Origin: an uncultured Anaerolineae bacterium
Lineage (GTDB): Bacteria; Chloroflexota; Anaerolineae; Aggregatilineales; Phototrophicaceae
Direction: 5' to 3'
Assembly (NCBI GenBank): GCA_938022205.1
Contig: CALIEB010000005.1
Span: forward strand, 62,001 to 126,000
DNA: 64,000 nt
Positions 6,675 through 22,530 of the stretch are shown piece by piece (the stretch's first letter is position 1; every line of letters begins with the position of its first letter). Under the pieces are notes generated by a model. That model worked only from the letters and a program-made list of their open reading frames with translations, was not told the DNA's origin and did not search any database. The translations under genes and the position numbers were made by a program.

Positions 6675-9383
6675 ATGGCACGATGGGTTTACGGCATTCT
6701 CTTGGCGGGATTGATGAGCGTTTTCGCCGCGCAGTTTTTGCTCACCGACCACATTTTGGCGCGTGGCGACACCTTCACCTTCTTCTACCCGTATTGGGAG
6801 GCGCGCAACGCGGCACTGCGGGCGGGTGAGCTGCCGCTCTGGTCACCCTACCTGTTCATGGGGTCGCCGCTGCTCGCCGAGCCGCAGCTCGGCACGTACT
6901 ACCCGCTGAATTGGCTCACGTTGCCGTTTGCTAACGCGCCCGACGCTGTCGAGTTCAGCGTGCTGCTCCACTTGTTCTTGGGCGCAGCAGGCGTATTCGT
7001 GTTGTTTGCGCACCTGTTCCCCGCGCGGGGGCTTGCATGGGGCGCGCTGGCAGCCAGCGTCACGTACATGTTTAGCGGCAACCTACTCGGACACGTGGAA
7101 CAAGTCAATCAACTGCAGGGGTTAGCGTGGTTGGGCTGGCTGTTCTGGCTTTGGCACAAGGCTGTTGCCGCGCCGCGCCATTGGCTCATTCCGTTCGGCA
7201 TGGCGTGGGGCGCGCTTTTTTTCATCGGTCACACGCAAACCGTGTTCATTGCAGGCGTAGGCTTGGGAGTCTATGCGCTGACGCAGGCGTGGCAAGCGCG
7301 AAAGGCGCGTGCGCTTTTGGTCGGCTGGGGCGTGCTGGCGGGGGCGGGCGCGCTTGGGATACTGCTCGCGCTGCCCCAGTTCTATCCCACATTAGAGCTT
7401 ACCGGCATGTCCAATCGCGGCGGCAGCGGGCTAACGCCCCAGCAAGCCACCGCCTTCTCCTTGCCGATACACTACTTGGGGCGCGCGCTGCTGCCCAACT
7501 ACGACGGGCTGCTGTTCACCGAGTACATCGGCTACTTCGGCATCGTTGGCATGCTGCTCGCGCTCTACGCGCTGCGCACGCCGCAGCCGCAAGCGCGCCG
7601 CGTCCACGTTTGGGCGTGGGCGATTGTCGCGCTGCTGGGGCTGACCTTCGCCTTCGGTCGCTATAACCCGCTGTACCTGCTGCTGGCAAATTTTCCGCCC
7701 TTTAACCTGTTTCGCGTGCCAGCGCGCTGGTTGGCGTTGCTAGCTTTAGGCGGCGCAATCTTAGCAGGCACGGGCTTACAGGCTCTCACCGAACGCCCAC
7801 GACCCACGCTGCCTATGCTTGCAGTTTTAGCCCTGCCCATCGGCGCGCTAGCATTGTTGGCGTGGGGCTTGCCGACGCTTGCGCCCGAGTACGCTATTCC
7901 CTCCGTTGACATACGCGGCGCAAGTGTACCATCTTGGCGCACGCTCGGGCTATGGGCGGGTGCGCTTGCGCTAGGCTTGAGTGCGATGGGGCTTGCCGCC
8001 CGCTGGCGATACGCCGCGCCCACGCTGTTTTGCCTGCTCGTGCTAGAGCTTTGGGGTGCGTCGCTCGTGCTGCCGCTCAATGAGCTTGCCCCGCGTGAGA
8101 CTTATCTCACACCGCGTTTCACCGCTACCAGCTTGCAAACGCTGCAAGCCGAGCGCAGCGGGCGCGTGCTTGCCATCAGCAGCTGGTTGTTTGACGTGGG
8201 TGACAAAGACACGCTGCGAGCGCGCTACGAGGGACAAGGCTTCAGTGAAGCAGCCATCCAAACCGCCTTTACCGCCACTAAACGCCAAGAAATGCTCGCC
8301 CCTAATTTGCCGCAAACATGGCACATTGCCAGCGTGGACGGTTACGGCGGCGGACTGCTGCCAACGATGACCTACTCCCAGTTCACCTCGTTGGTCTTGC
8401 CGCCCGACACGCTGCGCACGGTGGATGGACGCATCGGCGAAGCATTGGCACGCGAGAGCTGTCGCGGCGCGTGCTTGCCAGAGGCGCGTTGGCTTGACTT
8501 AATGCACGTCGGCTACGTGATTACGGACAAGCGGCACGACGTATGGCACGAGGGCATCGCCTTTGACACCACCATACGGCGCGAACAGGCTGCCCTATGG
8601 TTTGCGCCGTCACCGCTCATCGCCAATCGTCTAGCAGTGTTGTACGCGGGTACAAACATCACAGCCTTCGCTGACGATACACCGCTAGCGTTGCTGCAAG
8701 CGCGCCCGCTTGCCGACAGCCTCATGCGCGCTGACTACGCCCTGCCGCAAGCAGATATCTTGTCGAGCGTGCGTCTTGTGCCAGAAGCTAACAGCGTCAT
8801 CTTAGGCGCAACGCTCTACCACAACACACACAACACGTTCGTTGAGCTTGCACCCGAAGGCTGGCAGCGCGTGCTTTCCAGCGACATCAAGGTCTACGCG
8901 CGCGAACAAGGCTTAGCGTACGCCCACGTCATAGGCGACGCGGTCACGCTGCCTGACACGTGGCAAGGCAGCGAGGACGCGCTCGCGCTCATGCAGCAGC
9001 CTGACTTTGACCCCGCGCGTCGCGTTATCCTTCATGGCAACGCACCCGCACTAGCCACCGCCGCCACAGGCAGCGCACAGCTTATCGCCGCCAGCAACAC
9101 AGGGCGCACCTTTGCCGTGCAAAGCGACCGCGAGGCGTATGTGCTGCTGCTCGAGAGCCACTACCCACACTGGCACGCCTTCGTTAACAACGCACCCGCC
9201 CCGCTCTACCGCGCCAACGTGCTGTTCATGGCGGTGCGCGTGCCAGCAGGCGACAGCACGCTCACGCTGCGCTTTCAGCCTGACACATGGTGGGGCGCGC
9301 TTGGGCTAGGAGCGGCAGCCTGGGGCGTGTTAGGGCTGCTAGCGATAGTCTTGTGGCGCGCTACGCCGACCAAAGTTCACTAG
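6675..9383 (+). CDS. YfhO-like polytopic membrane protein
   Basis: A 902-residue membrane protein. The N-terminal half has many hydrophobic helices with an early extracytoplasmic segment DTFTFFYPYWEARNAA and GELPLWSPYLFMGSPLL. The C-terminal half is a large extracytoplasmic beta-rich part followed by a final helix. This is the architecture of the YfhO family (GT-C-like fold, linked to sugar decoration of teichoic acids or other envelope glycans in Bacillus). The C-terminal block ending ...VPAGDSTLTLRF is typical. It is paralogous to the N-terminal part of the gene at 11990. The catalytic role and donor are unknown. Its end overlaps the convergent phosphatase gene by 23 bases. Confidence 0.8.
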   Translation: MARWVYGILLAGLMSVFAAQFLLTDHILARGDTFTFFYPYWEARNAALRAGELPLWSPYLFMGSPLLAEPQLGTYYPLNWLTLPFANAPDAVEFSVLLHLFLGAAGVFVLFAHLFPARGLAWGALAASVTYMFSGNLLGHVEQVNQLQGLAWLGWLFWLWHKAVAAPRHWLIPFGMAWGALFFIGHTQTVFIAGVGLGVYALTQAWQARKARALLVGWGVLAGAGALGILLALPQFYPTLELTGMSNRGGSGLTPQQATAFSLPIHYLGRALLPNYDGLLFTEYIGYFGIVGMLLALYALRTPQPQARRVHVWAWAIVALLGLTFAFGRYNPLYLLLANFPPFNLFRVPARWLALLALGGAILAGTGLQALTERPRPTLPMLAVLALPIGALALLAWGLPTLAPEYAIPSVDIRGASVPSWRTLGLWAGALALGLSAMGLAARWRYAAPTLFCLLVLELWGASLVLPLNELAPRETYLTPRFTATSLQTLQAERSGRVLAISSWLFDVGDKDTLRARYEGQGFSEAAIQTAFTATKRQEMLAPNLPQTWHIASVDGYGGGLLPTMTYSQFTSLVLPPDTLRTVDGRIGEALARESCRGACLPEARWLDLMHVGYVITDKRHDVWHEGIAFDTTIRREQAALWFAPSPLIANRLAVLYAGTNITAFADDTPLALLQARPLADSLMRADYALPQADILSSVRLVPEANSVILGATLYHNTHNTFVELAPEGWQRVLSSDIKVYAREQGLAYAHVIGDAVTLPDTWQGSEDALALMQQPDFDPARRVILHGNAPALATAATGSAQLIAASNTGRTFAVQSDREAYVLLLESHYPHWHAFVNNAPAPLYRANVLFMAVRVPAGDSTLTLRFQPDTWWGALGLGAAAWGVLGLLAIVLWRATPTKVH

Positions 9384-10945: not shown

Positions 10946-11010
10946 GGTTTGCGCCATGTTTGCTTTACGCGCATAATAAGGCAAACACACTTCACAAGCT
11001 AGGAAAAACC

Positions 11011-11640
11011 ATGACGCAAGCGTATTACGACGAAGAACATCACGAAGAGGACACCGAAGGCTACTGCATGCGCTGCCGTGAGTCCGTAGTCATGGAAGAT
11101 CCCGTCGCGGTCTGGACGCGCAAAGGACAACCCGCCACGCGCGGCACATGCCCACTGTGCGGCGGCATGGTGTTTCGCATGGGCAAGACGAACGCCCACG
11201 ACGAACGCCAACGCCCCAGCGCGCTGCAAATTGGCGACAACAACGACAAGCGCACCCGCGCCAAGCTCACGCGTGACACGGTATACATCAATTATGCGCC
11301 CCAAGACGAGGAACGCGCTCAACAAATTGCCGATGATTTAGGCAAGTCGGGGTTAGCAGTGTGGTTGCACGAAAGCGAAGATGACACCGCGTGGGCTAGC
11401 GCAGTGCATCCTGCTCTAAAAGCGTGCGCGCGCATGGTGCTGATTTGGTCGGCGCATACACAAGACGACGCAAGCGTCCAAGCCGCGTGGCAGTTCTTCA
11501 AAGACCAGCGCAAGCCCATTGTGCTGGCGCATCTCGACGAAGATGCCCCGCCTGACCCCTTACGCCGTGCGCCGCGCTTTGTTTTCTACACAGACTACAA
11601 GCCCGCGCTGCGCCAGATGCTCGACAGCTTAAGCAGCTAA
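11011..11640 (+). CDS. DUF5679 zinc ribbon fused to a TIR-like domain
   Basis: A 209-residue protein in two parts. Residues 17-60 match the DUF5679 zinc ribbon: Cys19/Cys22 in YCMRC and Cys47/Cys50 in CPLC, with PATRGTC between. Residues 90-205 look like a TIR_2 domain: VYINYAPQDEERA, then VWLHE near 118, WASAV near 128, a hydrophobic strand MVLIWS, and KPIVLAHLD. In catalytic TIR domains a glutamate lies a few residues after the Ser of this last region. Here the stretch reads ASVQAAWQ, with alanine or tryptophan at that place, so NADase activity is doubtful. Start chosen at the ATG at 11011 behind AGGAA; the longer frame from 10912 overlaps tauE. Confidence 0.75.
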   Translation: MTQAYYDEEHHEEDTEGYCMRCRESVVMEDPVAVWTRKGQPATRGTCPLCGGMVFRMGKTNAHDERQRPSALQIGDNNDKRTRAKLTRDTVYINYAPQDEERAQQIADDLGKSGLAVWLHESEDDTAWASAVHPALKACARMVLIWSAHTQDDASVQAAWQFFKDQRKPIVLAHLDEDAPPDPLRRAPRFVFYTDYKPALRQMLDSLSS

Positions 11641-11896: not shown

Positions 11897-11989
11897 ATTG
11901 CTATTTTGTGCTACTCAAAGGTTATAAACGGTAGTATGCTTGCGCCTTGCACGCACATTTTTACCCTTGTGCCTTTGAAGGACTGGCTC

Positions 11990-14900
11990 ATGAAGCGCGC
12001 TTTTCCCGACTTGCTAGCGATTGCGACGCTCTTTTTGCTGCCACTGGCGTTTTTTTTCGCGCAAACACTGGGCGGCAAGACGCTCATCCCCGCCGAAAAC
12101 CTCTATCAGTATGAGCCTTTCGCCACTGATGCGCAAGCCGTTGCTGCGCCCGCACCGCATAATCACCTGCTCTCAGACTTGGTGCTACAAAACTTTCAGT
12201 GGAAACACTTCGCTAAGTCGCAGCTTTTGCAAGGCGAAGTGCCGCTGTGGAATCCGCATCAATTCAGCGGCATCCCCTTCCTAGCAGCTGGGCAGCACAG
12301 TGCGCTCTATCCGCTAAGCGTCGTGTACTACCTGCTCGAGCTGCCTCACGCCTATGGATGGTACACCGTGCTGAACGTGTGGCTGGCGGGTGTGCTGGCA
12401 ATGGGGTTTGTGCGCGCGCTTGGCGTGGGGCGCGTAGCGAGCGTACTAGCAGGCGTGGTCTATCAACTCAACGGCTTTGTGCTTGCCAGCGTCGTGTTCC
12501 AGATGATGATTGGCGGCTTCGTCTGGCTGCCGCTGCTGCTGTGGATGTGCGAGCGCGTGCTGCGCGGGCAAACCACCCTCTTAAGCGTGGCGATTGGCGC
12601 AGGCGCGTTAGGCATGAACGTGCTGGCGGGGCATGCCGAAATTACGCTCTACACGCTGCTCATCGCGGGCTATTACTGCGCGTTTCGCCTGCTTTGGGAA
12701 GCGTGGCAAACGCGCGCATGGTCGGCACTGCTGCGCAAAGCGGCGTGGCTGCTGCTTATTGTCGGCATTGGCATGGCATTGGGCGCGGTGCAAGCCTTGC
12801 CGTTGTTCGAGTTTGCCCAAAGCAATTGGCGTGCCGAACGCAGCGACCTAGCCACCGTGCTGAGCTACGCGCATCCCCCGCGTGACCTCTTGCAGTTCGT
12901 CATGCCCAACTTTTACGGAAATCCCGCGCATCACCACATCTTCGACGTGTTCAGCATGCGCTGGGTGTCACTAGAGGGCGCGCCGCAACCACACACCGAA
13001 TGGGGCATCAAAAACTACGTGGAAGGCGCGCTCTATGTGGGTATCTTGCCGCTGCTGCTCAGCGGCTATGCGCTTTGGGCAGGCTGGCGTGACCGCAACA
13101 CACACCGCCAACAGCCGCCCTATCGCGTTCTGTTCGCGCTTTTGGGCGTAGCTGCGTTAGCATTCATGTTCGGCACGCCGCTCTACGCGCTACTTTACAA
13201 CCTGCCTGCGATGAACCAACTGAACTCGCCGTTTCGTTGGATTTACGCGCTGACGCTGTGCGTGGCAGTCTTGAGCGCGTTCGGCTTAGACGCACTGGCA
13301 CACCGTCCCGCCCGCCGCTGGGGGCTAGCAGCCGTAGGCAGTGGCACGTTGCTGCTAGTGGGGCTGCTGCTCTCACGCTTGCTTTACGACGCGCTTGCGC
13401 CCACACTGGAGCGCGTTTTCTTGGGGCTAACCAACGCGCCGAACGCTTTTCCTTCGCTCGCGCTTTTCTACAGCTACCAAGTCGCCAATGCACTAATCCT
13501 CGCGCTAGTGCTGGTGATTGGTGGCACGCTGTGGGCGTGGCGCGGGCGCGGCTGGCGGCTCGCCTTGCTCGCACTAGTGGCAGTCGACTTGGCGATTGCG
13601 TCTTGGGGCTTTAACCCCGCCAGCGAACCCAACCTGTTGACGTTTACGCCGCCATCGGTGACGTGGTTGCAAGCGCAGCAGGCAAAAGGCGAACGCTTCC
13701 GCATTATCAGCGTCGACGACCCCGCCCAACGCCCGCTCTTCAACGCCAACAGCATGTGGCGATATGGGCTAGACGACGTGCGCGGCTATGACAGCATCAT
13801 CCCCAAACCCTACGTCGATTACATGCGCGCCGTCGCGCCGCAAGTGCAGCTAGACTTTAACCGCATTGCGCCGCTGTACACCGTTTATCCACCAAGCGCG
13901 CCGCACGACTATCGCGCCACGCTGGATAACCCACGCTTTGCCCTGCTCAACGTGCGCTATCTTGTCAGCCACCGCAGCACACAGCTTGACCACCCCCAAG
14001 TTAGTCTTGCCTATGAGGACGAGAGCGTGCGCATCTGGGCGTATGCCGCCGCTTTCCCACGTGCGTTTGTGCTGCCCGTTGATGTTGTCACGTGGGACAT
14101 CGCCGACGTTTGGGACGCGCAAGCAGCCGAACAGGCACGCGCTGCGCTTGCCCCCGCCACTATCCATCGTGACAGCGGACGCGAGAAGTTCTTGCACGTC
14201 ACGCTCGCCGAACCAAGTTGGCTGGTCATCAGCGAGAACATGGCAAGCGGCTGGCGTGCCTTCCTTACGCCTTTAGACGCGCTCGGAAGTGACGAAACCG
14301 CGTTAGACATGGCACACGTTAACGGCATTTTGCAGGGCGTGATGCTGCCCGCAGGTGCGTGGCAAGTGCGCCTCATCTACAGCCCCGCCTCGTTCCAAAT
14401 CGGCTTGTTCGGCAGCATTAGCGGCGCGGCGATTGTGGTGCTGCTGTTAGGCATGTGGTTGTGGGGCGCACTCGTCGGCAGCGCAGACGCAAGCGTGTCG
14501 ACAACAGCGCGAGTGGCACGCAACAGCATCGCGCCGATTGTCCTCAACCTGTTCAATCGCGGCATCGACTTCGCCTTCTTGCTCGTTATGCTGCGCCTGC
14601 TCACGCCCGACGATGTCGGCACGTACTATTACTTGGTCGTTATCTTTGTCTGGTTCGACATCTTCACCAACTTCGGGCTAGACTTGTTCTTCATCCGCGA
14701 GGTGAGCCGCGACAAAAGCCGCGCAGGGCATTACTTCTATAACGTGAGCCTGCTGCGGTTGCTGCTGGCGTTCGTCGGCGTGCCGCTGCTTTGGGGCTAC
14801 CTTGCCGCGCGGCAAAGCCTCGTCAGCCCGCCCTTAAGCGATACCGCCCTGCTCACCGTCGCGTTGCTCTATGTAGGCTTGTTCCCCGCCAGCTTGAGCA

Positions 14901-15973
14901 AGGGCATGAGTTCGGTCTTCTATGCGTTTGAACAGGTGGAAAAACCGGCAACGATTGCCACTATCACCACGCTCAACAAAGCCATTTTTGGCGTAATTGT
15001 GCTGGTGCTAGGTTGGGGGATTATCGGGCTGGCGGTCGTAAGTATCTTCAATAACTTGCTCACGCTGGGCGTACTTATGGCAAGCGGGCGCAAGCTCATC
15101 GCCGGCATCACGCGCTGGCTGCCGGACACGGCACTGCTCAGGCAAATGATACGCGGCAGCTGGGCATTGCTGCTCAATCACTTCTTGGCGACCATCTTCT
15201 TTCAAAGCGACGTTGTGCTGCTAGAGGGCATCAAGGGCGCGGTCACGGTCGCACAGTACAGCGTCGCCTATCGCTGGATTCTCGCCATTAACATCGTTCC
15301 GTCGTTCTTCACGCAAGCCCTGCTGCCCGTCATGTCACGACAAGCGCAAGAGAACCGCGACGCGCTGCGCCGCACTTATACCTTTGGCATCAAGCTCATG
15401 GTCGCGCTGGCAGTACCGACGGCGGTGCTGTTCACGCTTCTCGCTGAGCCGCTGACTTATCTCATGGGCGGGCAGCAATATTTGCCCGACGGCGCGATTG
15501 CGATTCAGCTCATGATTTGGAGCATTCCACTGGGGTGGATGAACAGCCTCACACAGTACGCGCTAGTGGCATTAGACCTGCAAAAGCGCATTACGGGCGC
15601 GTTTACGCTGGCAGTCGCGTTCAACATCGTCAGCAACGCGCTGCTCATTCCCACCTTCAGCTACCAAGCCGCCGCGCTAACTACCATCGCCAGCGAGTTC
15701 GTGCTGTTCGTGCCGTTCGCGCTGCTGATGGAGCGTGGGCTTGGCGAGCGCATCGCGTGGCACAAGCTGCTGTGGCGACCGTTCACTGCCGCCGGCGCAA
15801 TGCTGCTGGCGGCATGGGCGTTGAGCGGGGTGTCGTTGCTGCTAGCGTTAGGTGTAGCGAGCGTCGTGTACGTGGTCGTGTTAGGGTTGCTGCGCCCGCT
15901 GGATGCCGAAGAGCGCGCACGCTTCGCACAGATGCTGCCGCAACGCGCGCGACGGCTGGCACGCCTAGCCTAG
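11990..15973 (+). CDS. Fusion: YfhO-like membrane domain plus polysaccharide flippase
   Basis: A continuous 1327-residue frame starting at the ATG at 11990 (GAAGGA 8 nt upstream). Residues 1 to about 830 repeat the architecture of the YfhO-like protein at 6675: early motif GEVPLWNPHQFSGIPFL, many helices, then an extracytoplasmic domain ending ...LPAGAWQVRLIYSP and one helix. After a short linker, residues about 845-1327 form a second polytopic unit of the RfbX/MATE-like oligosaccharide flippase type (SIAPIVLNLFNRGIDFAFLL). The join shows no stop or frame change. It would couple a GT-C-like envelope protein to lipid-linked sugar export; this role is inference. Confidence 0.8.
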   Translation: MKRAFPDLLAIATLFLLPLAFFFAQTLGGKTLIPAENLYQYEPFATDAQAVAAPAPHNHLLSDLVLQNFQWKHFAKSQLLQGEVPLWNPHQFSGIPFLAAGQHSALYPLSVVYYLLELPHAYGWYTVLNVWLAGVLAMGFVRALGVGRVASVLAGVVYQLNGFVLASVVFQMMIGGFVWLPLLLWMCERVLRGQTTLLSVAIGAGALGMNVLAGHAEITLYTLLIAGYYCAFRLLWEAWQTRAWSALLRKAAWLLLIVGIGMALGAVQALPLFEFAQSNWRAERSDLATVLSYAHPPRDLLQFVMPNFYGNPAHHHIFDVFSMRWVSLEGAPQPHTEWGIKNYVEGALYVGILPLLLSGYALWAGWRDRNTHRQQPPYRVLFALLGVAALAFMFGTPLYALLYNLPAMNQLNSPFRWIYALTLCVAVLSAFGLDALAHRPARRWGLAAVGSGTLLLVGLLLSRLLYDALAPTLERVFLGLTNAPNAFPSLALFYSYQVANALILALVLVIGGTLWAWRGRGWRLALLALVAVDLAIASWGFNPASEPNLLTFTPPSVTWLQAQQAKGERFRIISVDDPAQRPLFNANSMWRYGLDDVRGYDSIIPKPYVDYMRAVAPQVQLDFNRIAPLYTVYPPSAPHDYRATLDNPRFALLNVRYLVSHRSTQLDHPQVSLAYEDESVRIWAYAAAFPRAFVLPVDVVTWDIADVWDAQAAEQARAALAPATIHRDSGREKFLHVTLAEPSWLVISENMASGWRAFLTPLDALGSDETALDMAHVNGILQGVMLPAGAWQVRLIYSPASFQIGLFGSISGAAIVVLLLGMWLWGALVGSADASVSTTARVARNSIAPIVLNLFNRGIDFAFLLVMLRLLTPDDVGTYYYLVVIFVWFDIFTNFGLDLFFIREVSRDKSRAGHYFYNVSLLRLLLAFVGVPLLWGYLAARQSLVSPPLSDTALLTVALLYVGLFPASLSKGMSSVFYAFEQVEKPATIATITTLNKAIFGVIVLVLGWGIIGLAVVSIFNNLLTLGVLMASGRKLIAGITRWLPDTALLRQMIRGSWALLLNHFLATIFFQSDVVLLEGIKGAVTVAQYSVAYRWILAINIVPSFFTQALLPVMSRQAQENRDALRRTYTFGIKLMVALAVPTAVLFTLLAEPLTYLMGGQQYLPDGAIAIQLMIWSIPLGWMNSLTQYALVALDLQKRITGAFTLAVAFNIVSNALLIPTFSYQAAALTTIASEFVLFVPFALLMERGLGERIAWHKLLWRPFTAAGAMLLAAWALSGVSLLLALGVASVVYVVVLGLLRPLDAEERARFAQMLPQRARRLARLA

Positions 15974-16792
15974 CGCGCGCTCGACCGCCGCGAACATCAC
16001 ATCGAGCGGCGCGGGCTGCCCCGTCCAGAGTGTAAACGCTAGCGCGCCCTGCCGCACGAGCATGCCCAAGCCGCCAACAGCCCGTCCGCCCGCCGCCTCT
16101 GCTTGACGCATGAGGCGCGTCACGCGCGGACGATACACCATGTCGTAAACCGTCACGCCCGACGGGAATGGTACGTCATTCTCCCAAGGGCTTGCGTCCG
16201 TGTCGGGATACATGCCAACCGATGTACAGTTCACCACAAGCGTGGGCTGCCACGCCAGCGCATCCGCTAGCGTCAACACTTGCGCACCCTGCAAACCCGC
16301 CGAAAGCGCAAGCTGAGCGAGCATGTCGTGGGCGCGCTGCGGCGTGCGGTTGACCACCGCGACCTGCGCGCCTTGTTGCCACACGCCGTAGACCGCTGCG
16401 CGCGCCGCGCCACCCGCACCTAACACCAACACCCGCGCCTCCTGAAGCGGCACAGCGTGCGCCTGTAAGTCCTGTAAGAAGCCGTCCACGTCGGTGTTCG
16501 TGCCTATGTTCGTGCGAAAGTCAATCGTGTTGACCGCGCCGACCGCTCGCGCCTTGTCGTCAGGGCGCACGTAGCGCATCACCACCTCTTTGAAGGGAAT
16601 GGTCACGTTCAGCCCGATAAAACCGTGACGGCGCGGCTCTTCTACCGCGTGGCGGGGAATATCAGGCGGCACTGCCATCGCTGTGTACTCCCAATCGTCT
16701 AAGCCCAATGCCGCAAACGCCGCGTTGTGCATAGCAGGGCTAAGCGTGTGCGAGAGCGGAAACCCGATGATGCCAACGCGCTTGGATTTCAT
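15965..16792 (-). CDS. aroE: Shikimate dehydrogenase
   Basis: NADP-dependent reduction of 3-dehydroshikimate to shikimate. A 275-residue AroE with a shikimate-binding N-terminus PLSHTLSPAMHN (Ser14 and Ser18), catalytic Lys68 in NVTIPFKE, Asp101 in TNTDVDGF, NADP loop GAGGAAR at 125-131, and NCTSVGM. It is the last gene of the minus-strand aromatic block, starting 3 nt after the aroA stop. Its end overlaps the convergent flippase fusion gene by 9 bases. Confidence 0.95.
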   Translation of the reverse strand: MKSKRVGIIGFPLSHTLSPAMHNAAFAALGLDDWEYTAMAVPPDIPRHAVEEPRRHGFIGLNVTIPFKEVVMRYVRPDDKARAVGAVNTIDFRTNIGTNTDVDGFLQDLQAHAVPLQEARVLVLGAGGAARAAVYGVWQQGAQVAVVNRTPQRAHDMLAQLALSAGLQGAQVLTLADALAWQPTLVVNCTSVGMYPDTDASPWENDVPFPSGVTVYDMVYRPRVTRLMRQAEAAGGRAVGGLGMLVRQGALAFTLWTGQPAPLDVMFAAVERALG

Positions 16793-16795
16793 GCG

Positions 16796-18109
16796 CTATG
16801 CCTCGTGCGTGATGCCCGCGCCGAGCAGCTGCAGCGTTTCGGCGAAGCGCGGGAAAGAGTCATTGGCGCAGTCGGCATCTTCTACAACCGTCTCGCCTTC
16901 CGCCACCATGCCCGCCACGGCCATGCTCATGGCAACGCGGTGGTCATCGTGACCGTCTACGACCGCGCCCTTAAGCGTCTGTTTGCCGACAATGCGGAAG
17001 CCGTCCTCGCGCTCTTCAACTTGTGCGCCTAGCTTGCGCAGCTCCGCTGCCATTACCGCGATGCGGTCGGTCTCTTTGACGCGCAGCTCTTGCGCGTCGC
17101 GCACCAGCGTTTCGCCCTCAGCACACAGCGCGGCAATCATGAAGATGGGAAACTCGTCAATCATGCGCACGACCAGCGCACCGCTAATTTCGATGCCGCG
17201 CAGGGCAGCAGGCTTAATGCGAATGTCGCCCACCGGCTCGCCGCCCTCTAGCCCCGTTTCAGTTACCGTGATGTCCGCGCCCATCGCCTTAAGCGCGTCG
17301 AGCAAGCCCGTGCGCGTGGGGTTGAGGTTCACGCCCGTCAGGGTGACATTGCTCGACGGCACGATGCTGCTCGCCACGATGAGAAACGCCGCCGACGAGA
17401 AATCGCTCGGCACGGTCATATCAAGCGGCTTAAGCGGCATTCCCGTCGGCGTAAGCGTGATGCGCCCGCCTTCGCTGACAACGTTCGCGCCCATCGCCCG
17501 CAGCATGCGCTCGGTGTGGTCGCGCGCGTCGGCGGGCTCAATCACAGTGGTTGCGCCGTCGGCGTACAAGCCCGCCAGCAGCAGCGCGCTCTTGACCTGT
17601 GCGCTGGCAACGCTCATCTCGTAGGTGATGCCCTTGAGCGGCGCAGGTTGAATGGTGAGCGGGGCTTTGTCGTCCACGCCGCTGATGTTTGCGCCCATCA
17701 AACGCAGCGGCTCAATCACACGCTTCATCGGGCGGCGGCGCAGCTGCGCGCTGCCGTCCAACACGCTGGCGAAAGGCTGTCCCGCCAGCAAGCCCGCCGC
17801 AAGGCGAATGCCCGTGCCTGCGTTGACGAAGTTGAGCGGCTGTGTGGGCGCGTGCAGCGTGCCGCCGTAGATGGTCAGCGTTTGCGCGTCGTGGCGTTCT
17901 ACGCGCACGCCCAACGCCTGCACACACGCCAGTGTTGCTTCGGTGTCGCCGGCGGGCAAGAAGCCGCGCACCTGCGAGATGCCGTCTGCGATAGCCCCCA
18001 GCAACACAGCGCGATGCGAGAGCGATTTATCCCCCGCTACCCGCACCATGCCCCGCAGCGGGCGGCGTGATTGTACGATGAACTTGCCCATTTTGCCGCT
18101 TTTGCTCAT
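16796..18109 (-). CDS. aroA: 3-phosphoshikimate 1-carboxyvinyltransferase (EPSP synthase)
   Basis: Transfers enolpyruvyl from PEP to shikimate-3-phosphate. The 437-residue protein has the expected two-domain repeat, with GDKSLSHRA at the N-terminus (phosphate-binding Lys/Ser/Arg), NAGTGIR and FLPAGDTEAT. The ATG at 18109 has GGTGGAG a few bases upstream. This start lies 83 bases inside the end of tyrA in another frame, an unusually long overlap. An internal ATG at 18091 would shorten it to 65. Confidence 0.95.
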   Translation of the reverse strand: MSKSGKMGKFIVQSRRPLRGMVRVAGDKSLSHRAVLLGAIADGISQVRGFLPAGDTEATLACVQALGVRVERHDAQTLTIYGGTLHAPTQPLNFVNAGTGIRLAAGLLAGQPFASVLDGSAQLRRRPMKRVIEPLRLMGANISGVDDKAPLTIQPAPLKGITYEMSVASAQVKSALLLAGLYADGATTVIEPADARDHTERMLRAMGANVVSEGGRITLTPTGMPLKPLDMTVPSDFSSAAFLIVASSIVPSSNVTLTGVNLNPTRTGLLDALKAMGADITVTETGLEGGEPVGDIRIKPAALRGIEISGALVVRMIDEFPIFMIAALCAEGETLVRDAQELRVKETDRIAVMAAELRKLGAQVEEREDGFRIVGKQTLKGAVVDGHDDHRVAMSMAVAGMVAEGETVVEDADCANDSFPRFAETLQLLGAGITHEA

Positions 18110-18980
18110 ACTTCTCCACCCAGTCTAAACGTGCTTGACGCACAGGAAATAAAGACTCCACGAGTTTATCATATTCACCGCCCAGCAGCATGGTTTCCAT
18201 AATGGCAAGCTGCACGCGAAAGCGCGCCAGCAGCACCGCAACGGCGCGACTGTTGGTGCTGATAATGTCGCCCATCATCTTAATGTCGCTGGCGGCAAGG
18301 CGCGACATATCACGAAAGCCACCCGCCGCTAGCTCCCAAAACGCCTCGTCGCGGCGCGCCTCGTTGGCAATCGTCGCCACCAACGACGCGCTGAGAATAT
18401 AGGGCAAGTGGCTAATGCCCGCCACAATGCTGTCATGGCGTTCTGCGTCCATCTCAACGGCCTGCGCGCCCAACGCCTCAACCAGCGACAAGGCGCGTAG
18501 GCGCGTAGCGGGCGTAGTACGGCGCGTGGCGCACAGCACAAAGGGTCTGCCGACGTAGAGTGTGCCGTCTGCCGCTGCAATACCGTTGGTCTCTTTGCCC
18601 GTCATGGGATGTCCGCCGATGGCGTGAATGCCAATCGGCAGCCGCCCCATCGCCTCGCAGATGTCATGCTTGGTGCTGCCAATGTCAATCAGCAGCGTGT
18701 TGGAGCGCAGAAAACTGCCAATCTGCAGCGACACAATGTCGCGGATGACGCGCACTGGTGCCGCCAACACCACCGTCTCCGCGTCCATCACGCCCGCTTT
18801 GAGGTCATCCGTCACGCGGTCAACAATGCCGTGCTGAATAGCGTAGGCGCGCGTTTCTGCCGAGCTATCAACGCCTGTGATGATGTCGGCGCGGTCACGC
18901 AGAGCCAGCGCAAACGACGCGCCCATCAATCCCAAGCCAACGACCGCCAAATGCTTGGTACGAAAGCCGCTTTGTGTCAT
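18027..18980 (-). CDS. tyrA: Prephenate dehydrogenase
   Basis: Oxidative decarboxylation of prephenate (or arogenate) on the tyrosine branch. 317 residues from the ATG at 18980. The N-terminal Rossmann motif is VGLGLMGASFALAL, followed by STKHDI and GGHPMTGKE, the conserved prephenate-site histidine region, and the helical C-terminal domain. No ACT domain follows, so there is no obvious built-in feedback site. The upstream frame to 19163 is antisense read-through in the chorismate mutase gene and is rejected. Its C-terminal end overlaps aroA. It follows the chorismate mutase gene, which supplies prephenate, by 13 nt. Confidence 0.93.
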   Translation of the reverse strand: MTQSGFRTKHLAVVGLGLMGASFALALRDRADIITGVDSSAETRAYAIQHGIVDRVTDDLKAGVMDAETVVLAAPVRVIRDIVSLQIGSFLRSNTLLIDIGSTKHDICEAMGRLPIGIHAIGGHPMTGKETNGIAAADGTLYVGRPFVLCATRRTTPATRLRALSLVEALGAQAVEMDAERHDSIVAGISHLPYILSASLVATIANEARRDEAFWELAAGGFRDMSRLAASDIKMMGDIISTNSRAVAVLLARFRVQLAIMETMLLGGEYDKLVESLFPVRQARLDWVEKYEQKRQNGQVHRTITPPAAGHGAGSGG

Positions 18981-18993
18981 ACCGTCACCGTTC

Positions 18994-19371
18994 CTAGCCT
19001 TGTTTGTGTTGTTGAGTAAGGTCAGGGCGCAGCACCGCCGCGCCACGCAAGAAGACGTGCTGCAAGCTGCTTGCGGGTTTATCCGTGTTCCAATGAATAA
19101 GCACACGCACGCACATGGGCAACCCGTTCGGCACCGCCATCTCTTGAAAGCCCATGAGCGCAACGTTGTGCCAGCCCATGTCCCGCGCCGCTTTGGCAGG
19201 ATAGCACGCCGTCAGGTCGGGCGTGGTCGTGAAGAGAATGCTCGCCACGTCCTCCTCTTCAATGCCGTTGCGTTCAATCATTGCCAGCAACAGCTCTTTC
19301 GTCGCGCTCAAGATGGCTTCGCTGGTGTCTGCGTCTGTCGTGGTTGCGCCGCGCACGCCTCGCACTGTCAT
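18994..19371 (-). CDS. aroH: Chorismate mutase, AroH type
   Basis: A 125-residue monofunctional chorismate mutase of the Bacillus AroH trimeric class, converting chorismate to prephenate. Diagnostic blocks are VRGVRGATTTD at the start, TTTPDLTACYPAKAARD, and the C-terminal HVFLRGAAVLRPDLT. AGGGGAAG precedes the ATG. It is the first gene after the trp terminator and leads the aroH-tyrA-aroA-aroE group. No separate strong promoter is evident in the 30 bases before it, so some read-through of the terminator is likely. Confidence 0.94.
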   Translation of the reverse strand: MTVRGVRGATTTDADTSEAILSATKELLLAMIERNGIEEEDVASILFTTTPDLTACYPAKAARDMGWHNVALMGFQEMAVPNGLPMCVRVLIHWNTDKPASSLQHVFLRGAAVLRPDLTQQHKQG

Positions 19372-19400
19372 TGGTCTTCCCCTGTGATATAGATTGGCAC

Positions 19401-19432
19401 AAAAAAAGCGCAGGGCAGGCTGCCTTGCGCTT
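19401..19432 (-). terminator. Intrinsic terminator at the end of the trp operon
   Basis: On the minus strand a near-perfect GC-rich stem (about 12 bp with one G-U pair; the plus-strand arms are AGCGCAGGGCAG and CTGCCTTGCGCT) is followed by seven T residues. It lies between trpA and the aroH gene. Confidence 0.85.
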
Positions 19433-19453
19433 CTGTATCACGTTGCTATCTTG

Positions 19454-19537
19454 CTAGTGACCAAACCAAAGCAAACCGCCTGTGCGAAGAGCGTGCTTGC
19501 CACAATAATAATAGGTCTTGAACGTGTGTTTGGTCAT
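19454..19537 (-). CDS. Possible 27-residue peptide after trpA
   Basis: A short ATG-to-TAG frame in the 218-base gap between trpA and the aroH gene, wholly upstream of the terminator. It begins MTKHTFKTYYYCGKH and ends GGLLWFGH, so it has Cys, His and aromatic residues. An AAGG lies about 12 nt before the ATG, which is too far for a good ribosome site. No family is recognised. It may be chance; conservation in related genomes would decide. Confidence 0.3.
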   Translation of the reverse strand: MTKHTFKTYYYCGKHALRTGGLLWFGH

Positions 19538-19588
19538 TGTGCAAACTGCCTTATTTGTGCATGAGAATAGCGCGCTTTTGCGCGTCTG

Positions 19589-20395
19589 TCAAGCGAGTGC
19601 CGCGCGCAGACTTTGCGCTAGCGCACGCACTGCGTCGACACCTTGCGCGCCCGCCCGCACCAACGCGCTGCCGACAATAAAACCCTCGACCAAGCCGTTC
19701 ATCTGACGCGCATGGTCGGGCGTGCTGATGCCAAACCCTAGCACCAGTGGCGTTTGCACGCGCTGGCGGATGCGGGCAATGAACTCCATCAAGTCGCTGG
19801 GAAGTTCGGCGCGCGCACCCGTGATACCTGTCAGCGACACGACGTAGATAAACCCTGTCGCGTTGCTCGCCACCAAGTCCATGCGCTCGGCATTGCTCGT
19901 GGGCGCGAGAAAGAACACCAACGCCAATCCAGCAGCGCGACAGCTCTCGGCAAAATAGTGCGCTTCCTCCGGCGGCAAATCTGGCACAATCAGCCCGTCC
20001 ACGCCAACTTGCGCCGCGTCCGCGACAAAGCGCGCCGCCCCATACGCCAGCAGCGGGTTGGCGTAGCTCATCATCAGCATGGGCTGTGTCACGCCACGCG
20101 CCCGCAGCGTGCGCACCGCTTCAAGGCAGCGGCGCACGGTCACGCCCTGCTGCAAGGCGTGGTAGGTGGCGGATTGAATGACCGCGCCATCAGCGATAGG
20201 GTCGCTGAACGGCACACCAATCTCAAAGCCGTCCGCGCCGACCTGCGCCATTGCCTCAATCGCCGCCAACGATGTCTCGTAATCGGGATAGCCTATCGGA
20301 TAGTACGGCAAAAACGCGGCGCGCCCTTGCGCCTTTGCCGTCGCAAACATAGCCTCAATGGCTGCTAAACCATGCGTGGTTCGTGTTTCGCTCAT
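19589..20395 (-). CDS. trpA: Tryptophan synthase alpha chain
   Basis: Cleaves indole-3-glycerol phosphate to indole, which is channelled to TrpB. A 268-residue TIM barrel with the catalytic glutamate in FEIGVPFSDP and aspartate in PIADGAVIQS, and LVFFLAPTS and GFGISTPDHA in the phosphate-binding part. Full length. It is separated from trpB by the DUF429 gene, whereas trpB and trpA are usually adjacent. Confidence 0.96.
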   Translation of the reverse strand: MSETRTTHGLAAIEAMFATAKAQGRAAFLPYYPIGYPDYETSLAAIEAMAQVGADGFEIGVPFSDPIADGAVIQSATYHALQQGVTVRRCLEAVRTLRARGVTQPMLMMSYANPLLAYGAARFVADAAQVGVDGLIVPDLPPEEAHYFAESCRAAGLALVFFLAPTSNAERMDLVASNATGFIYVVSLTGITGARAELPSDLMEFIARIRQRVQTPLVLGFGISTPDHARQMNGLVEGFIVGSALVRAGAQGVDAVRALAQSLRAALA

Positions 20396-20462
20396 GCGTT
20401 CGTGCCTCTCTTGGCGTGCGCCGTCGCGCCGCCGTTTAGGTCATCCCAATCAGTCCGCGCAA

Positions 20463-21254
20463 TCAAACGGTTAACCGCTTTTTCAAGCGGTAAATAAAGC
20501 CCTCTTGTGCTGCATGCGTGCGTTCGGCTTCGGTCGCATAAGGCGGGAGCTTGTCACTGGCATCGAAGAACTGCGCGTTATAGCCCGCTATCAAGCAGGC
20601 TGCCACGCTATCCGCCTCATCTTGCGACGTGATGTTTTGTTTAGGAAACCAAACACCACACCGCCAAAATGACCGAAGACGAAAATTAAATTCGACGGAG
20701 CGCGACACATTCAGCCCGTGCCAAACTTGCGAGGGATAGACCTCTATCACTATAGCTTGCGCGCCCTCTATCGGCAAGTGTGGGTAAATGGCCACGCCCG
20801 CTCGATGTAGCATCGCCAAGAGCTTGCCGCCGCTGTAAAGCATGGGCAACAACGCGGGATTGACGCGTTTGCAACCGCTGTATGCCTGCGCAGCGACATC
20901 GGTGGCGCGACAAAACAGGTCATGCTGCGTGCATTTGCGCTCGCTACGCCCTACTTTTGCCTCTATCCAAGCATAAAACTCACGGCGCGACATCGCCAAG
21001 CATACCTCGTAAAGCTGCAAGGGTGAGGCAAGCTCCAACGCCGCTAGTGCTTGCGTGGACAAGCTAAACGGAAAATCCAGTCCCCACACGCCTTGCGAGC
21101 GCACAATAGCCGCGAATAAGTCCATGCGGTCGTCGCATGGCACAATCTCGCTGATAGTCAGGTGCGTAAAATCAGCGTGGCCTTTGGCATAAGCGAGGCG
21201 CGGCGTGCGTGCGCCGCTAAAATCCGCACCGTAAACAGGCGTAAAAAGCAACAT
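20463..21254 (-). CDS. DUF429 protein (predicted RNase H-like) inside the trp operon
   Basis: A 263-residue DUF429-family protein, related to a predicted RNase H-fold nuclease group. Acidic positions fit the family: GADFSGA at the N-terminus, GLDFPFSL near residue 59, EVYPSQ near 170 and SQDEADSVAA near 205. The molecular function of the family is not established. Its start codon shares one base with the trpB stop and trpA follows 67 bases later, so it is transcribed with trp. I know of no role for this family in tryptophan synthesis. Confidence 0.8.
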   Translation of the reverse strand: MLLFTPVYGADFSGARTPRLAYAKGHADFTHLTISEIVPCDDRMDLFAAIVRSQGVWGLDFPFSLSTQALAALELASPLQLYEVCLAMSRREFYAWIEAKVGRSERKCTQHDLFCRATDVAAQAYSGCKRVNPALLPMLYSGGKLLAMLHRAGVAIYPHLPIEGAQAIVIEVYPSQVWHGLNVSRSVEFNFRLRSFWRCGVWFPKQNITSQDEADSVAACLIAGYNAQFFDASDKLPPYATEAERTHAAQEGFIYRLKKRLTV

Positions 21255-22477
21255 TATGCACTCCCTAGCAAGCCTATCACCGTGTCGAGGTCTTTGTCGC
21301 CGCGCCCGCTCAGGTTGACCAGCAGGACACTGTCTTTAGGCATAGTCGGCGCGCGCTTGATAACTTCGGCAATGGCGTGCGCGCTCTCCAACGCGGGAAT
21401 GATGCCCTCATATTGGCTCAGCGTTTGAAAGGCACGCATGGTTTCTTCGTCAGTGGCAAAGGTGTAGTGCGCCCGCTCGAGCGAGCGCAAGTAGGCGTGT
21501 TCGGGTCCGACAGACGGGTAATCCAGCCCCGCGCTGATGCTATGCGTTTCGCGCACCTGTCCATCTTCGTCTTGCATCACAAACGAGCGCGTGCCGTGCA
21601 AGATGCCAACGCGGCTCACGTCTGGGTTGGCGAAGCGCGCGGCGTGCTTGTCGGTGTTGATGCCGTATCCGCCTGCTTCGACACCGACGAGTTCGACGCT
21701 CTCGTCGTCGCGGAAGGCGTGGAACAAACCAATGGCGTTGCTGCCACCGCCCACGCAGGCAACGCACACGTCAGGCAGCTGCCCCGTCGCTGCGAGAATT
21801 TGCTGGCGCGCCTCCATGCCAATGACGCTTTGAAAGTCACGCACCATCATTGGATACGGGTGGGGTCCCAACGCCGACCCCAGCAGGTAGAACGTCGTGC
21901 GCACGTTGGTGACCCAATCGCGCATGGCTTCGTTAATCGCATCTTTCAGCGTCTTGCTGCCGCTCTCGACGGGCAGCACCTCTGCGCCCATCAAGCGCAT
22001 GCGAAAGACGTTGGGCTTTTGTCGCGCCATGTCGACGCTGCCCATATAGACGTGGCAGTCCAGCCCCAAAAGCGCGGCGGCGGTCGCACTGGCAACGCCG
22101 TGCTGCCCCGCGCCGGTCTCGGCAATCACGCGCCGCTTGCCCATGCGTTTTGCCAGCAACGCTTGCCCCAGCGCGTTGTTGATTTTGTGCGCGCCCGTGT
22201 GTGCAAGGTCTTCGCGCTTGAGATAAATGCGCGCGCCGCCCAAAAGCTCGGTTAACCGCTTGGCGTAAGTCAAGGGCGTGGGTCTGCCCACGTACGTTGC
22301 TTGCAAGTGGGCTAGCTCGGCATGAAAAGCAGGGTCTTGCAGTGCTTCGTCATACGCTGCTGTCAGTTCGTCCAACGCGGGCATAATTGTTTCCGGCACA
22401 AAGCGACCGCCAAATTCACCATAGTAGCCGCGTGCGTTTGGCACGTTGGGCGTTGTCTTGCGGATATACCGTTCCAT
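21254..22477 (-). CDS. trpB: Tryptophan synthase beta chain
   Basis: PLP enzyme joining indole and serine. 407 residues from the ATG at 22477, chosen because AAGGTGA lies 6 nt before it; the frame also has an ATG at 22510. The PLP lysine is Lys98 in [13 protein letters not shown], with [20 protein letters not shown] for phosphate binding, and [13 protein letters not shown]. This is the TrpB1 type, which pairs with TrpA. All active-site motifs are present. Confidence 0.96.
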
Positions 22478-22530
22478 CGCTTCACCTTTTTGTTGTCGTC
22501 TCGTTTTCATTTGTCACAAGCGTGTTTCTA

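Follow-up and report, generated by a model that had tools for sequence, protein, structure and literature searches.

A single-chain fusion of a YfhO-type GT-C protein and a MOP-type flippase in Anaerolineae, with a proposed role in transmembrane glycosylation

An open reading frame of an uncultured Anaerolineae bacterium raised the question of whether one polypeptide could both flip a lipid-linked sugar across the membrane and use it on the other side. In multi-component transmembrane glycosylation, a polyprenyl phosphate carrier is loaded with a sugar inside the cell and flipped, and the sugar is transferred outside by a GT-C enzyme (PMC8035078); the flippase in such systems is of the GtrA or Wzx type (PMC8035078) or belongs to the MATE family (PMC11127046). 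MOP flippases are often assigned to their GT-C enzymes on the strength of neighbouring genes, and in the closest precedent flipping was not directly demonstrated (PMC11127046). A natural fusion binds one flippase to one enzyme in the same chain, and both steps could be tested with a single purified protein.

The gene, its domains and their predicted folds

The gene lies in a stretch of 64,000 nucleotides (contig CALIEB010000005.1), which was analysed as a whole and is referred to here as the window. A preliminary description of this DNA had read the gene as a 1327-residue in-frame union of a YfhO-like protein with a flippase, and this was borne out by a single open frame on the plus strand (ATG at 11990, stop at 15971-15973; 1,327 codons), by Pfam domains in both halves and by full-length relatives (Table 1). 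The YfhO domain (PF09586) exceeded its Pfam cut-off over residues 58-275 only (36.7 bits vs 28.5). In the flippase half, Polysacc_synt (PF01943; residues 843-1117, 83.6 bits vs 28.2) and Polysacc_synt_3 (PF13440; residues 866-1166) were both over their cut-offs, and the Pfam MurJ match was sub-threshold. The two halves join at about 14387-14515. The free-standing YfhO-like paralogue placed 2.6 kb upstream by the same description was also found (6675-9383, 902 aa), with a YfhO score of 27.9, slightly below the Pfam cut-off (28.5).

Table 1. Coordinates of the fusion gene and its parts in the window
Feature	Position	Strand	Basis
Shine-Dalgarno-like AAGGA, 7 nt 5' of the ATG	11978..11982	+	sequence
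Entire fusion gene, 1,327 aa	11990..15973	+	open reading frame and full-length homologues
YfhO/GT-C half, residues 1-829: 13 predicted membrane helices, outer C-terminal domain, 14th helix	11990..14476	+	PF09586, AlphaFold2 model, GT-C matches
D63 codon: invariant, first outer loop, candidate GT-C catalytic Asp	12176..12178	+	conservation, alignment with Asp32 of paralogue 6675-9383
K341-N-Y-V-E345 motif: near-invariant, in a large outer loop beside low-confidence stretch 331-338	13010..13024	+	conservation, model
Outer soluble domain, residues 539-799, beta-rich at its end	13604..14386	+	DSSP of model
Final helix of YfhO half, residues 800-829, predicted to run from outside to inside	14387..14476	+	AlphaFold2 models
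Short linker, residues 830-842, predicted cytosolic	14477..14515	+	AlphaFold2 models, topology
MOP-superfamily flippase half, residues 836-1327	14495..15970	+	PF01943/PF13440, AlphaFold2, MurJ/WzxE fold matches

Export of a peptidoglycan precursor as a default function was unsupported. The sole NCBIfam match of the flippase half, the MurJ equivalog TIGR01695, reached 31.9 bits against a cut-off of 235.55, and three other proteins of the genome exceeded that cut-off. With three separate MurJ proteins in the genome, the fusion is not the sole candidate for lipid II export.

Structure prediction, suggested as a check in the preliminary description, gave a GT-C fold for the N-terminal half (best Z 22) and a MurJ/Wzx fold for the C-terminal half (best Z 31). 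AlphaFold2 was run separately on residues 1-842 (pLDDT 88.8, pTM 0.91) and residues 560-1327 (pLDDT 90.6, pTM 0.82), with 58-sequence alignments. The N-terminal model matched yeast STT3 best (VIA Z 22.4, rmsd 4.2, 443 aligned), followed by AftD (Z 21.7; Foldseek E 6.6e-7), PglB (Z 18.9) and ArnT (Z 16.5; Foldseek E 3.8e-6), at sequence identities of 8-15% to the matched STT3/AglB/PglB, AftD and ArnT structures. The C-terminal model matched MurJ (VIA Z 30.9, rmsd 3.2, 447 aligned) and WzxE (Z 29.6). A PDB sequence search with profiles of both halves returned no meaningful match. The YfhO half is thus predicted to have the GT-C membrane fold, and the C-terminal half, from its Pfam Polysacc_synt match together with its modelled MOP fold, was assigned to the MOP superfamily as a polysaccharide transporter of the Wzx type.

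Topology read from the model helices placed the N-terminus of the YfhO half inside, followed by 13 helices, the outer domain and a 14th helix leading back to the cytosol; on this model-assigned topology the inner loops are rich in Arg and Lys. The 14th helix is predicted to end in the cytosol, where the MOP-type fold begins, so neither half would need reorienting at the join.

The N-terminal matches also allowed another reading, in which the YfhO half acts in the manner of an oligosaccharyltransferase or ligase. Like Wzx and MurJ, the flippase half would then export a diphosphate-linked oligosaccharide, which the GT-C half would transfer in one block to a protein or polymer. Its top VIA matches were STT3, AglB and PglB (Z 18-22), a similarity of fold only, known MurJ and Wzx proteins carry diphosphate-linked substrates, and the conserved K341-E345 motif adjoins a poorly ordered outer loop. 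This motif and loop may loosely resemble EL5 of PglB. However, AftD, an enzyme that uses a lipid-phosphate sugar, ties with these matches in Z (21.7), and the YfhO proteins of known role add single sugars (PMC8035078). We therefore regard en bloc transfer as rather unlikely.

Conservation and selection were consistent with a working enzyme in the YfhO half. In an alignment of 63 sequences, 208 columns showed at least 97% identity; D63 was invariant in all 63, and position 36 was acidic in every one. Both D63 and Asp32 of the upstream paralogue stand 24 residues ahead of the Trp of a shared PLW, and D63 lies in the first outer loop, where an acidic residue is conserved in GT-C enzymes. The position of D63 fits that of the catalytic Asp of these enzymes, making it a candidate catalytic residue. 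Invariant residues in the membrane portion of this half gathered on the outer side: outer loops held 44 of the 64 and inner loops none, although outer loops, as assigned from the model, make up 233 of 581 residues (40%; hypergeometric P 9e-7). Between close pairs, dN/dS ranged from 0.08 to 0.18 in the YfhO half and from 0.03 to 0.26 in the flippase half; both halves are under purifying selection and thus maintained.

Distribution in Chloroflexota and history of the fusion

The preliminary description had pointed to relatives as the place to look for the same fusion and had named two separate genes there, together with an assembly error at the join, as the outcome that would undo it. Instead, the fusion was found at full length across the order and the class. 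A match was present in each of the 41 genomes sampled from the order, in most of them as a single open frame of 1,320-1,490 codons that spanned the query (45-62% identity); full-length copies were 62% identical within the genus and 45-61% identical in most of the order. Of the 298 genomes sampled from the class, 272 matched at E <=1e-20, about 258 of them (counted by hand) with a best E <=1e-59. The fusion was almost or entirely absent from two families of the class (f34 and f58), in which many near-complete genomes were sampled. With the class taken from record titles, the fusion is nearly universal in Anaerolineae. The two families lacking it are natural knock-outs for the comparison of envelope glycans.

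Across the phylum, 151 of 301 sampled genomes matched. The fusion also occurred in several families outside Anaerolineae (e.g., genomes G478, G429, G394, G408, G562 and G364), and other families of the phylum carried a stand-alone flippase of ~530 aa that was 30-40% identical. Relatives thus did not show the combination of two separate genes and an assembly error at the join; where some other families have a stand-alone flippase, this is at least partly because the YfhO half was lost later. Fusions outside the phylum were covered by one scan of a named contig collection only, in which 79 loci matched and 63 had a full-length single-frame copy. The titles of these 79 loci read Anaerolineae, Anaerolineaceae, Aggregatilineales or Chloroflexi, except for one bin titled Bacteroidetes (L091). 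The fusion in that bin was 48% identical to the one in the window and had neighbours in common with Anaerolineae loci; it is probably a Chloroflexota contig that was wrongly binned.

The same survey made it hardly credible that two adjacent genes had been merged by an assembly error, frameshift or missed stop. A few relatives do have a stop or frameshift, but wherever an interrupted copy was examined, its stop lay within the YfhO half (query positions 373, 622 and 657), and no relative examined had a stop or frame break at the join. Full-length single-frame copies occurred in dozens of independent assemblies, including three single-contig genomes (G050, G257 and G264), and purifying selection acts on either side of the join. 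From the recurrent single-frame copies, the one-contig genomes and the breaks lying elsewhere, an artefact at the join was rejected for the family.

The history of the two halves was compared in quick trees with some long branches and an assumed root. Fused YfhO halves formed one clade that excluded every stand-alone YfhO tested (support 100), whereas fused flippase halves did not: stand-alone flippases nested among them, and the AU test rejected their monophyly (p 7e-5). In one family (f66), two fused and two stand-alone flippases grouped together (support 99). Because the YfhO halves form one clade while the flippase halves do not, the simplest reading of the trees is that the halves were fused once, long ago, and that some lineages later lost the YfhO half; independent origins of the fusion are not favoured. 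YfhO paralogues in genomes with a stand-alone flippase were at best about 30-35% identical, and many stand-alone flippases retain an extra N-terminal helix resembling the one with which the YfhO half ends. The flippase of genome G578 (L146, 6094-8781) is preceded by an eroded YfhO-like remnant of about 400 aa, which matches the profile at both ends of the YfhO half but lacks the middle.

These losses bear on a reading in which the flippase is the working part and the YfhO half a tether or regulator, its transferase activity lost or never present. The survival of the flippase alone in several families speaks for this, as does G578, where only an eroded half is left. However, D63 and the large outer-face cluster are invariant in fused lineages and the dN/dS of the YfhO half is low (0.08-0.18), and we consider a mere tether or regulator improbable.

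Proposed mechanism and comparison with known systems

The fusion, its two predicted folds, their matched topology, and the conservation of and selection on both halves were established by computation; flipping, transfer, coupling, sugar and acceptor are inferred. At a probability of roughly 60%, one polypeptide performs two successive steps of transmembrane glycosylation, flip and then transfer. A cytosolic enzyme would load a sugar onto the polyprenyl phosphate carrier, and the C-terminal MOP-type half would flip the lipid-sugar outward. The N-terminal GT-C half, with D63 as the candidate catalytic residue, would then transfer the sugar to an envelope acceptor, which the outer domain (residues 539-799) may hold. 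By means of the 14th helix and the short cytosolic linker, the producer and the user of the flipped donor would be kept adjacent.

The preliminary description had proposed that such a chain couples lipid-sugar export to its use. The anatomy it assumed was recovered, with a GT-C fold and a MurJ/Wzx fold fused in one chain; the proposed coupling fits the topology, the conserved residues and the precedents in which Wzx or MATE flippases and GT-C enzymes act as separate proteins (PMC8035078, PMC11127046). Counting against the mechanism, the persistence of the flippase without the YfhO half in some lineages indicated that it does not strictly depend on that half, and no conserved operon surrounds the fusion across about 70 loci to point to a sugar or acceptor.

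We suggest, more tentatively and at less than even odds, that the halves fused once early in Chloroflexota, and that the product is a core envelope protein passing a lipid-linked sugar between active sites in one chain, for an undescribed Anaerolineae envelope glycan. That nearly all members of this little-studied class carry the protein suggests a core envelope glycan that is as yet uncharacterised.

Both protein families and both steps are already known from separate proteins, and what sets this protein apart is their union in one chain. CsbB-GtcA-YfhO and related three-component systems of Firmicutes likewise use a YfhO-family GT-C enzyme on a flipped polyprenyl-phosphate sugar outside the membrane, but they consist of separate proteins and their flippase is of the small GtrA type rather than the MOP type (PMC8035078). 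GacK (Wzx-type) and GacL (GT-C) of Streptococcus pyogenes likewise pair a MOP-type flippase with a GT-C enzyme; they too are separate, and the domain given for GacL is PMT-2 instead of YfhO (PMC8035078). In the pentofuranose three-component system, a MATE-family flippase and a GT-C enzyme (GT136) belong to one pathway, but as separate proteins, with a GT-C of another family and with MATE flippase activity not directly shown (PMC11127046). MurJ and WzxE resemble the C-terminal half in fold (VIA Z 29-31) but have no attached enzyme, and STT3/AglB/PglB, AftD and ArnT resemble the N-terminal half in fold (VIA Z 16-22) but have no attached flippase. Among the papers searched, none described the fusion, although its architecture may be recorded in automatic domain databases.

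Genomic surroundings

Of the parts of such a system, the flippase-type and GT-C-type halves were seen in one chain, and the window's genome encodes a GT2 protein with a 62% match to the synthase-like GT2, located elsewhere and unlinked to the fusion gene. At 20 loci, which belong to two lineages, a GT2 of the polyprenyl-phosphate sugar synthase type lay within about 8 kb of the fusion, and at 8 loci a DUF2304 gene was nearby. Both neighbours were set aside as functional clues because they are too lineage-bound. Just upstream of the fusion in the window (11008-11640, plus strand), a 210-residue protein carries DUF5679 (residues 19-58) and TIR_2 (residues 92-201), both over the Pfam cut-offs. 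Downstream, on the minus strand (15965-22510), a run of genes resembles aromatic amino acid biosynthesis, with aroE-, aroA-, prephenate dehydrogenase-, trpA- and trpB-like translations as read by eye.
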